This document shows positions 2,025-5,308 of a DNA stretch of 35,798 nt, piece by piece (positions within the stretch are counted from its first letter, which is position 1; each line of letters starts with the position of its first letter). The DNA comes from Bacteroidota bacterium (lineage in GTDB: Bacteria > Bacteroidota > Bacteroidia > B-17B0 > Aurantibacillaceae). Made by a program: the position numbers and the translations under genes. The DNA lies in the NCBI GenBank assembly GCA_013816615.1, contig JACDED010000022.1:8823-44620 (forward strand), written 5' to 3'. The notes below the pieces were generated by a model. It did no database searches and was not told where the DNA came from. It was given only the letters and a program-made list of their open reading frames with translations.

Positions 2025-4394
2025 ATGTATTTACGTCTTCATTTATTTAAAACGATCTTAGGAATTTTTCTGATCTTTTTAACTGCACTTTCATTTTCTC
2101 AAAATATTCATAACAATCCGCAATCCAATCACGGCAATAAATTTGAACAATTAGGAACCATACTTCCTACGCCTAACGAATACCGTACTGCTTCGGGCGC
2201 ACCGGGAAATAAATACTGGCAGCAAAAAGCAGATTACGATATTGATGTAAAGCTGGATGAAAAAAATCTTTCGATCGTTGGTACAGAAACTGTTACCTAT
2301 CACAATAACTCACCGGATAATTTAAATTACATCTGGTTACAGCTGGATGAAAATCAACACGACCCAACAAATGAAGTAAATTATTTTGATGAGAATAAAG
2401 TACAAGAACCTGTGACCGAACAAGCATTAAAAGGTTTACAAACAAAACAAAATTTAGCCGGCCTTGGCGATAAGATCGACGCCGTTACTGATGAATCAGG
2501 CAAAGCCCTAAAATATACCGTTAACGGAACAATGATGCGCATTGATCTGCCAAAAACATTATCATCTAAATCAAAAACAAAATTTATTATTAAGTGGCAT
2601 TATAAAATGATCAACCGTACTCAATATGGTGGACGTGGCGGTTACGAATATTTTCCTGAAGATGGAAATTACTTATTTACACTGACACAGTGGTACCCAC
2701 GCTTATGTGTGTACAGCGATTTTCATGGTTGGCAAAATAAACAATTTACAGGTCGCGGTGAATTTGCTTTAGCATTTGGAAATTTTAAAGTAAAAATGAC
2801 TGTGCCTTCGGATCATTTGGTTTGTTCAACCGGTGAATGTCAAAACTATCAACAGGTATTAACGCCTGCACAATTTGCAAGATGGACAAAAGCACAAACC
2901 GCTACAGAACCTGTAGAAATTGGTCTTTTAGCAGATGCTATTGAAGCAGAAAAAAGTGGTGAAAAAGGTGCAGCAGCACAAAAAACAAAAACATTTATTT
3001 TTAAAGCGGATAGTGTACGTGATTTTGCATGGGGCAGCTCACGTAAATATTGTTGGGATGCAATGCCGGTTAAAGTAGAAGGCAAGAAAATAATGTGCAT
3101 GAGTTTTTATGGTAAAGAAGCTTATGGTCTTTACAGAAAATATTCAACAAAAGTTGTAGCGCATACTATTAAAACCTATTCAAAATATACAATTCCTTAT
3201 CCTTACCCTGTTGCTCAAAGTATAGAAGCTGCAAATGGTATGGAGTACCCAATGATCTGTTTTAATTTTGGAAGAACAGAAAAAGACGGAACATATACTG
3301 AAGGTTCTAAGAATGGAATGATACTGGTTATTATTCACGAAGTTGGCCATAACTTTTTTCCGATGATCATTAACTCCGATGAACGCCAATGGAGTTGGTT
3401 AGATGAAGGCTTGAATACTTTTGTACAGTTTTTAACCGAACAGGAATTTGATTCTAACTATCCTTCGCAACGCGGACCCGCACATAAAATGACAGATTAT
3501 ATGCGTTTACCAAAAAGTCAGTTAGAACCAATTATGACCAACAGCGAAAATATTATTGGTTTTGGTCCGAATGCATACGGCAAACCAGCAACGGCTTTAA
3601 ATATTTTACGCGAGACTGTAATGGGCAGAGAATTATTTGATTTTGCATTTAAACAATATTGTACGCGTTGGGCTTTTAAACATCCGGAGCCGGCAGATTT
3701 TTTCCGCACAATGGAAGATGCAAGTGCTGTTGATCTTGATTGGTTTTGGAGAGGCTGGTTCTATGATATTGAACCCGTAGATATTTCTATTGATACTGTA
3801 AAAGCATTTACGGTTGTAAAAGGAAACAGAATTCCTGTATTGAATGACACGCTTTATACCTATCCAAAAATGAAAGAATTTGAATTCATTACAAAAACAA
3901 GGAATAAAGAAGCTGGATTAAAATCGTTAGTAGATGTGGATACAACACTACGCGATTTTTATTATCACTATAGTCCAAAAGAGCTCACAAAAGAAGTAAA
4001 GAACCGCTTTGATGAAATTGAACCCATAAGCGATACTGCCATTGCAAAATATGACGACAAATTTATTTACGAAATTAAATTCTCAAATAAAGGCGGTTTG
4101 GTCTCGCCATTAATTATACAATTTAATTATGCGGATGGCAGCAGCGATGTTGAACGTATTGGCGCTTATGTTTGGCGCAAGAATGAATATGAAGTAAGTA
4201 AAACATTTATGAAGAATAAAAAAGTAGTTTCAATTCTTTTAGATCCAATGCGTGAGACCTGTGATATTAACGAGCGCAACAATACCTGGAACATTAAAAC
4301 AGAACCAAATAAATTTGACCTATTTAAATCTAAAGCTGCAAAAACCCGCGGACAAAGCACCGGAGAAAATCCGATGCAAAAAGCGAAAAAATAG
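2025..4394 (+). CDS. M1 family metallopeptidase (secreted)
   Basis: 789 aa; signal peptide; GMEYP motif; zinc site HEVGHNFFPMIINSDERQWSWLDEGLNTF (HExxH-x18-E). Confidence 0.93.
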   Translation: MYLRLHLFKTILGIFLIFLTALSFSQNIHNNPQSNHGNKFEQLGTILPTPNEYRTASGAPGNKYWQQKADYDIDVKLDEKNLSIVGTETVTYHNNSPDNLNYIWLQLDENQHDPTNEVNYFDENKVQEPVTEQALKGLQTKQNLAGLGDKIDAVTDESGKALKYTVNGTMMRIDLPKTLSSKSKTKFIIKWHYKMINRTQYGGRGGYEYFPEDGNYLFTLTQWYPRLCVYSDFHGWQNKQFTGRGEFALAFGNFKVKMTVPSDHLVCSTGECQNYQQVLTPAQFARWTKAQTATEPVEIGLLADAIEAEKSGEKGAAAQKTKTFIFKADSVRDFAWGSSRKYCWDAMPVKVEGKKIMCMSFYGKEAYGLYRKYSTKVVAHTIKTYSKYTIPYPYPVAQSIEAANGMEYPMICFNFGRTEKDGTYTEGSKNGMILVIIHEVGHNFFPMIINSDERQWSWLDEGLNTFVQFLTEQEFDSNYPSQRGPAHKMTDYMRLPKSQLEPIMTNSENIIGFGPNAYGKPATALNILRETVMGRELFDFAFKQYCTRWAFKHPEPADFFRTMEDASAVDLDWFWRGWFYDIEPVDISIDTVKAFTVVKGNRIPVLNDTLYTYPKMKEFEFITKTRNKEAGLKSLVDVDTTLRDFYYHYSPKELTKEVKNRFDEIEPISDTAIAKYDDKFIYEIKFSNKGGLVSPLIIQFNYADGSSDVERIGAYVWRKNEYEVSKTFMKNKKVVSILLDPMRETCDINERNNTWNIKTEPNKFDLFKSKAAKTRGQSTGENPMQKAKK

Positions 4395-4424
4395 TTGTCA
4401 CCCTGAGCGGAGTCGAAGGGCAAC
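4394..4424. repeat. Short intergenic repeat with GAGCGGAGTCGA core
   Basis: GTTGTCACCCTGAGCGGAGTCGAAGGGCAAC: GTTG/CAAC and CCCT/AGGG arms. The core GAGCGGAGTCGA recurs at 5261-5298. Confidence 0.65.
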
Positions 4425-4441: not shown

Positions 4442-4472
4442 AAATCCCTCTTTTTTAAAGAGGGATTTTTTA
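4442..4472 (+). terminator. Intrinsic terminator after the M1 peptidase gene
   Basis: AAATCCCTCTTTTTTAAAGAGGGATTTTTTATTTT: perfect stem followed by a T-tract. Confidence 0.85.
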
Positions 4473-4502
4473 TTTTCAATATATTTTTCACTTCACTTTT
4501 TT

Positions 4503-4995
4503 GATTTGATGTTTTAATTTTTTTGCGTCGCCCGCAAACTCGCCCGAAAAGGGCTCAGACAGCGCGGGCTCAAAAGAATTTTAATGCGTCGCTATTGCCT
4601 AAATAAATTAATTATTCTACGCATTAAAAATCCGTCAGGATAAAAAATTAAAACCCAAATCTTACGGAATTTCTTTGAGGCCGTTATACAGCGTTTGCTT
4701 ACGCGTATTAGATTACGGAAATTTAGTTAGTTAGATGTTTGAGTTTTCGTTTCGATCTTTTGCAGAGATAGCTGCTGGCTAAGCTAGGCAATTAGTATTA
4801 TAGGCATAAAGATAGAAAGCTTAGACAGGCAGCGGTTTTATTTTGGCTGTCCTTCATCGCCAAAATAAAAATTTCCTTCAAAAGATCGAAAGCGTTTTGG
4901 TTACTTTTGCGCGCCAAAAGTGACAAAAGAAACATAAACAGTTTTGCTCAACTTTTTATAAAGAAAAAGTTGGATGAAAGGCTTTTAACACTGTT
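4503..4995 (+). ncRNA. Candidate large structured intergenic RNA or structured repeat element (undetermined)
   Basis: At least eight exact inverted-repeat stems, several nested, in a non-coding interval flanked by terminators at 4442-4472 and 5335-5364. A G-U-compatible stem on the + strand (GTTACTTTTG/CAAAAGTGAC) weakly favours + strand RNA. Confidence 0.42.
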
Positions 4996-5078
4996 CTCAC
5001 TTTTTGTTGTTTATAAAACGGTATGCAAAATATGTTATACCTGTTTTAATAAAAATTTGTTTTAGCTAATTTCATTGC

Positions 5079-5246
5079 ATGCAAAACAACACACAAACTC
5101 AGCCAAACAGCAACTTTATTAAGTCGCTTATTAAGATCAACAATCCAGATTGGTCGCCGGAACAAATTGAAGCAGAAGCTCAAAAGAAAATGCTTGAAAT
5201 TACCAATGGTAATGATAGTGATGATTGTGAATTTTGCTCGAGCTAG
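5079..5246 (+). CDS. Small 55-aa protein of unknown function
   Basis: ATG...TAG encodes MQNNTQTQPNSNFIKSLIKINNPDWSPEQIEAEAQKKMLEITNGNDSDDCEFCSS. Protein-like composition; acidic CxxC tail; below the ORF-track length cutoff; terminator downstream. Confidence 0.55.
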   Translation: MQNNTQTQPNSNFIKSLIKINNPDWSPEQIEAEAQKKMLEITNGNDSDDCEFCSS

Positions 5247-5252
5247 GCCAAT

Positions 5253-5308
5253 TGTCACTTCGAGTAGAGTCGAAGCATAAACTTGTCTCGACTCCGCTCG
5301 ACATGACA
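5253..5308. repeat. Inverted pair of the GAG(C/T)(G/A)GAGTCGA intergenic repeat
   Basis: TGTCACTTCGAGTAGAGTCGAAG...CTCGACTCCGCTCGACATGACA: TGTC/GACA, CGAG/CTCG and GAGTCGA/TCGACTC arms. Confidence 0.7.

Follow-up and report, generated by a model that had tools for sequence, protein, structure and literature searches.

The locus and its features

The tract considered here occupies positions 4503-4995 of the window, meaning the whole 35,798-nt stretch of DNA that was analysed, from the genome designated G000. It is bordered on one side by an M1 peptidase gene (2025-4394; PF01433) and on the other by a 55-aa ORF (5079-5246), after which comes a C25 peptidase gene. No ORF of at least 80 aa was found within the tract, in keeping with an initial inspection of the DNA letters (the sequence-only reading), which had seen no credible protein there and had favored a large structured RNA. 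The features of the interval, with their evidence in parentheses, are as follows.

4442-4468, plus strand: terminator-like hairpin AAATCCCTCTTT/AAAGAGGGATTT with a T run, belonging to the upstream M1 peptidase gene (inverted repeat I7)
4503-4661, plus strand: core of module A, stem P1 (4503-4523 with 4642-4661) around P2 and P3 (27 copies aligned; covariation; z -4.7)
4530-4535/4564-4569, plus strand: P2 of module A, with inner stem 4542-4545/4551-4554
4579-4589/4619-4629, plus strand: P3 of module A
4666-4682, plus strand: GGAATTTCTTTGAGGCC, the 3' strand of an extra outer stem round A (comparison of A-copy flanks)
4683-4749, plus strand: A-B linker with the conserved motif TGCTTACGCG (common to A+B copies)
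4750-4891, plus strand: module B, whose outer stem (4750-4762/4879-4891) encloses branches at 4771-4833 and 4836-4870 (32 curated copies; z -3.8)
4900-4924, plus strand: 3' terminal hairpin GTTACTTTTG-CGCGC-CAAAAGTGAC (copy alignment and flank comparison)
4942-4988, minus strand: inverted relic of the hairpin that normally lies 5' of module A (83% opposite-strand match in own-genome copies; flank comparison)
4983-5078, plus strand: region 5' of the 55-aa ORF (alignment of orthologous intervals)
5079-5246, plus strand: 55-aa ORF (tblastn, 76-85% identity in four relatives)

The hairpin at 4442-4468 is the M1 gene's own, lying ahead of the tract and outside the element; a hairpin of like kind follows the gene's stop in relative G007. 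At the other end, region 4983-5078 is conserved whether or not a relative has the element, and is no part of it. The 55-aa ORF, for which no Pfam match was obtained, is likewise a conserved neighbor rather than a component. Its position between the M1 and C25 peptidase genes is kept in relatives, together with the conserved upstream sequence TTAACACNGTTCTCACTTTTTG. A second dispersed repeat (TGTCACCCTGAGCGGAGTCGAAG and its relatives) was seen at window positions 4396-4420 and 5252-5308, flanking tract and ORF; it occurs in direct and inverted copies, and three further places hold it in the window's own genome.

Architecture of the window copy

Comparison with other copies shows the tract to be composite, made up of two modules that can occur separately: A (4503-4661 plus a tail) and B (4750-4926). 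In full-length A+B copies the element has a different type of end from that of complete B copies: a hairpin before A, GTCACTTTTTG..CAAAAAGTAACC, of which the hairpin after B (4900-4924) is the inverted counterpart; in the latter a T.G mismatch is retained in 29 of 32 copies. The 5' partner of GGAATTTCTTTGAGGCC (GGCT..CAAA.AAATTCC), present in full-length copies, is absent from the window copy, which is therefore 5'-truncated. Because the window copy lacks both the hairpin before A and the 5' half of the stem around A, and carries an inverted relic at 4942-4988, it is rearranged as well as truncated. It carries no terminal inverted repeats, and its insertion junction is not exactly readable, the empty sites holding other filler repeats.

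Every stem arm listed in the sequence-only reading was found at its coordinates, bar one end: in the stem at 4681-4717 the arms are present, with the last, ACGG, displaced by one to 4715-4718. This stem is not among the conserved stems of the repeat family. Compensatory changes in homologous copies bear out P1, P2 and P3 and every stem of the second domain, and the hairpin at 4949-4972, read at first as one more stem of the tract, is a separate piece that matches, in inverted form, the hairpin found 5' of module A elsewhere.

Folding, covariation and strand

The view that two branched domains in tandem are not expected by chance held up, each folding better than all 200 of its dinucleotide shuffles. 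For module A (4503-4661) the folding energy is -45.9 kcal/mol, with shuffles at -28.1 +/- 3.8 (z -4.7; 0/200 as low), and for module B with its hairpin (4750-4926) it is -56.0 kcal/mol, with shuffles at -40.8 +/- 4.0 (z -3.8; 0/200 as low). DNA parameters gave a larger excess, with z of -5.7 for A and -6.0 for B. Over the whole tract the excess of the minus strand over its own shuffles was at least that of the plus strand (z -4.5 versus -3.3; 20 shuffles).

Covariation among homologs, which a structured tract had been predicted to show, is strong in both modules. Fifteen of 35 pairs in module A changed on both sides (23 aligned copies; paired cells 96%), as did 26 of 50 in module B with the terminal hairpin included (32 copies; paired cells 98%). 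In 500 shuffles and in slid controls, none equaled the observed number of doubly changed pairs, of doubly changed cells or the covariation score; because the alignments tested had also supplied the structures, the slid versions were at a disadvantage, an effect that the shuffle test and the count of doubly changed pairs exceed by a wide margin. Conclusions were drawn from A1 and A2, two curated alignments, since RNAalifold gave a poor consensus for A on the large raw ones, which contain nested insertions. Loops and junctions, though unpaired, are also conserved between species, and covariation extends to arms separated by more than 100 nt (helix 1 of A and of B). Judged from the alignments, the fold of the family is under real pairing constraint, and the folded molecule may be either RNA or single-stranded DNA.

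A sense strand was looked for in the balance of G.U and A.C combinations. On the plus strand of the curated B alignment these stood at 24 versus 5, a signal that failed on strand-neutral pairs (B 28 versus 24), where A leans the opposite way (12 versus 33), and the indication was rejected.

Copy number and distribution

A search of the window's own genome with the tract uncovered seven further partial copies (loci L002-L008), spread over five other contigs, and across genomes the matches split into module A (window 4501-4711) and module B (window 4740-4939). Some copies are A then B; many are one module alone. Covariance models of A (R1) and B (R2) gave 62 A and 87 B matches, found together in 14 of the 40 genomes of the genus, including 8 A and 6 B matches in G000 and 21 B matches in G061 alone, the most B copies of any genome.

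Three of the own-genome loci (L003, L007, L008; G000:C185:66312-68516) form an array of about 2.2 kb between genes, with five A modules in alternating orientation and one B module. A third hairpin module, GGCAATGCA..TGCATTGAGC...GGCTAAATA.., was seen nested in B or replacing part of it at L006, L059, L069, L075, L077, L080 and L137-L140.

When 60 relatives were searched with the tract, nearly every match fell inside the same genus. The 29 places returned by a pattern scan of a genome collection all belong to MAGs of uncultured Bacteroidota, including UBA2475; genus UBA2475 has been placed in Bacteroidia; AKYH767; B-17BO (PMC11080526), and the GTDB genus holding this MAG is presumably the host genus of the family. 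Wider class-level scans were run with stricter filters. Under these, module A had no match outside the genus in same-class genomes, and among 295 such genomes clear B relatives outside the genus came from G229 alone, a member of another family. The five weaker B matches of G229 are distant, and keep the motif order of module B including the end hairpin; loci L112, L116 and L119 were noted there as distant B-type relatives. The single weak B match of G120 lies in protein-like sequence and is probably due to chance. A phage or plasmid origin was also considered and set aside, phage records, plasmid records and viral contigs all being without a match.

Element ends and insertion sites

In G061, conservation of B copies extends over about 67 and about 109 further flanking bases and then ends abruptly, at GTC(G/A)(A/T)CCCTCAAA and TTTGATGTTCGAC, which are mutual inverted repeats. 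Copies in G061, G012 and G034 have the ends GTCGACCCTCAAA...TTTGATGTTCGAC with TA outside. The terminal inverted repeat sequence of complete B copies is GTCGAMCMTCAAA, seen as GTCGACCCTCAAAAAG / GTCGAACATCAAATTC in these three genomes; such ends were established mainly in one B subfamily. TA stands outside 12 of 14 two-ended copies, and 8 of the 14 have an identical 6 bp on both sides (TAATTA six times, TAAATA twice), as read from occupied sites with no exact empty site for comparison. The same ends surround other cargo, of about 410 bp in G029 and about 300 bp in G017. Another conserved piece, GCACCAAATCGCC...CAAGACGTAGCTG, was observed 5' of the B element at G061 loci L131, L133 and L136 and at G012 locus L052.

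The M1 gene was traced into 36 genomes of the genus, in five of which the 55-aa ORF is recognizable beside it, each time with the conserved sequence directly before it. The M1-to-ORF interval is about 206 bp and without a module in G007, whose M1 protein makes it the nearest relative (94% aa), and in G034. The interval of the window genome holds A then B in gene direction, that of G019 a complete A+B copy in the opposite direction, and that of G006 A followed by a different second half, so that presence of the family is polymorphic at this orthologous site. Separate insertions would be a simpler account than one ancestral insertion, which would take two losses and an inversion; the junctions are unreadable because the intervals contain other short repeats.

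These comparisons bear directly on the options raised at the outset. A leader for the 55-aa ORF is contradicted by G007 and G034, which retain the ORF and its conserved upstream sequence without the tract, and the same absence, together with the many copies elsewhere, excludes a unique ncRNA gene dedicated to the locus. The term "structured" remains right, given the pairing constraint. What fits is the repeat or mobile-element option, for which there are dispersed copies, presence, absence and inversion at one site, and, in complete copies, terminal inverted repeats, often with direct flanking repeats. The reading favored earlier, a large structured RNA at this place, gives way to a modular MITE-like family with a pairing-constrained fold.

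Genomic context

The copies are non-coding, multiple and dispersed between genes in the 14 carrier genomes, with 3 of 145 module hits overlapping an ORF of at least 100 aa. By ORF-based gene calls, 112 occupied gaps comprise 49 convergent, 10 divergent and 53 co-directional ones, against 12, 34 and 75, respectively, among unoccupied gaps of the same loci (p 3e-7 for context preference). In co-directional gaps, B lies with the genes in 25 cases and against them in 14, and A in 14 and 9; neither difference is significant. The distribution is that of insertions tolerated 3' of genes, and copies avoid genes and divergent promoters. A pattern of insertion downstream of genes has been described for REPs (PMC3733652), and some MITEs have been described with such downstream-tolerated insertion (PMC10969869).

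Mobilization

The tract is most probably a truncated composite copy of a non-coding, modular, MITE-like mobile family and not an RNA gene dedicated to its locus. MITE membership of the complete copies has support from their terminal inverted repeats and weaker support from the direct flanking repeats. A transposase encoded elsewhere would move the elements as DNA, and insertions would survive mainly 3' of genes, off promoters. Less certainly, the branched fold may be kept through recognition of a folded single strand in mobilization. A multi-branched fold is not something that a plain passenger element requires, and the strong covariation is therefore not fully explained by the MITE-like reading.

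A non-exhaustive search for a transposase-bearing relative revealed none among the end-pattern hits examined. An IS630/Tc1-type partner, suggested by the TA flanks, was rejected: DDE_3 (PF13358) of the IS630 type occurs in 2 of 12 carrier genomes and is absent from G061, the genome richest in B copies. The single transposase found beside an element end belongs to a DDE_Tnp_1 (PF01609) insertion sequence at L305:4732-6354 (the end of G061:C19) inside an element copy, at the palindrome TCCCGATAGCTATCGGGA. It was dismissed as an autonomous copy, since this insertion sequence has ends of its own and had landed in a hairpin. The palindrome itself occurs as an additional hairpin in B copies L125, L126, L132 and L136.

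Alternative explanations

Mobilization by an IS200/IS605-type Y1 transposase (RAYT) that recognizes the end hairpins would make these REP/REPIN-like elements. The end hairpins are indeed mutually inverted with a mismatch kept, some reading CGTCAC and many copies TGTCAC, and Y1 genes (PF01797) occur in 28 of the 40 genus genomes. However, no end hairpin and no module B lay within 1.5 kb of any of 30 sampled Y1 genes, and G006 holds copies with no Y1 match. Complete copies run to several hundred bp and have multi-branched interiors, with modules of about 160-180 nt each, unlike the 20-40 bp GTAG- or CGTC-tagged palindromes of REPs. Flanking direct repeats, moreover, are not expected of IS200/IS605 Y1 movement, and those seen here are at odds with it. 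CGTC-tagged REPs have been reported in Bacteroidetes without a known transposase (PMC3733652); even so, this explanation is highly improbable, and Y1/RAYT mobilization was rejected for want of association at the Y1 genes.

That the modules are structured regulatory or non-coding RNAs spread by mobility, residing in 3' UTRs or having their own promoter and affecting mRNA stability, termination or targets in trans, is suggested by the strong covariation, by conserved loops such as GCAGAGATAG and TAGGC..TTAGT, by the preferred sites 3' of genes and by the plus-strand excess of G.U in the curated B alignment. Against it, orientation in co-directional gaps has no clear bias, the strand-neutral counts point to no common sense strand, the locus works without the tract in relatives, and the Rfam search advised by the sequence-only reading gave no family at the gathering cut-off, with weak hits below it. 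RNA function of this kind is thus unlikely. Similar doubt attaches to a mutational origin of the fold, in which template switching between inverted-repeat arms corrects pairing without selection and covariation is a by-product in decaying repeats. Template switching can create hairpins and keep them paired, with compensatory changes of several bases among its products (PMC8794818), the arms are AT-rich and near perfect, and the strand-neutral counts show no strand preference; yet unpaired loops and junctions are conserved between species too, and the covarying arms of helix 1 in A and B are more than 100 nt apart. As it concerns the cause of the fold, it is compatible with the mobile-element reading.

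Somewhat less doubtful, if still speculative, is a further proposal in which the branched modules would be recognition folds and the element would move via a folded single-stranded intermediate, DNA or RNA, carrying exchangeable structured modules as cargo. The enzyme would be new to such repeats, with distant relatives of the family elsewhere in Bacteroidia.

Significance and relation to known systems

As a MITE-like mobile family, these elements work like known small passenger elements. An uncultured genus of Bacteroidota gains with them a modular family of mobile elements, and G229, from a different family, may hold a distant relative of it. Structure searches for ncRNAs take covariation as the main proof of functional RNA, and the family is a warning case in this respect: its strong covariation and multi-branch junctions belong to a polymorphic repeat that is dispersed and shows no clear sense strand. 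It also provides a set for separating selection on folding from repair-driven correction of arms.

The family shares with the large structured ncRNAs of Rfam a multi-branched fold backed by covariation, and differs from them in having no match at cut-off, no conservation at a locus and no consistent strand signal. CGTC/GTAG-tagged REPs (PMC3733652) resemble it in their inverted end hairpins and in sites 3' of genes and in convergent gaps. A REP, however, is a single hairpin of 20-40 bp, whereas the present element measures several hundred bp and has a conserved interior. Prokaryotic MITEs (ERIC, Correia, bcr1, QMITE), like it, are short, non-coding, AT-rich, intergenic and dispersed, with stable folds, terminal inverted repeats and, probably in its case, flanking direct repeats (features as reviewed in PMC10969869). 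Distinct from these, the present family is built of two separable multi-branched covarying modules, of the size given above, and a parent insertion sequence was not found. In Streptococcus pneumoniae, BOX elements consist of interchangeable modules that are dispersed between genes in varying combinations, and this modular build and intergenic dispersal are found here also. BOX is unrelated in phylum and sequence and has smaller subunits, whereas the present family comprises at least three branched module types together with terminal-hairpin pieces.
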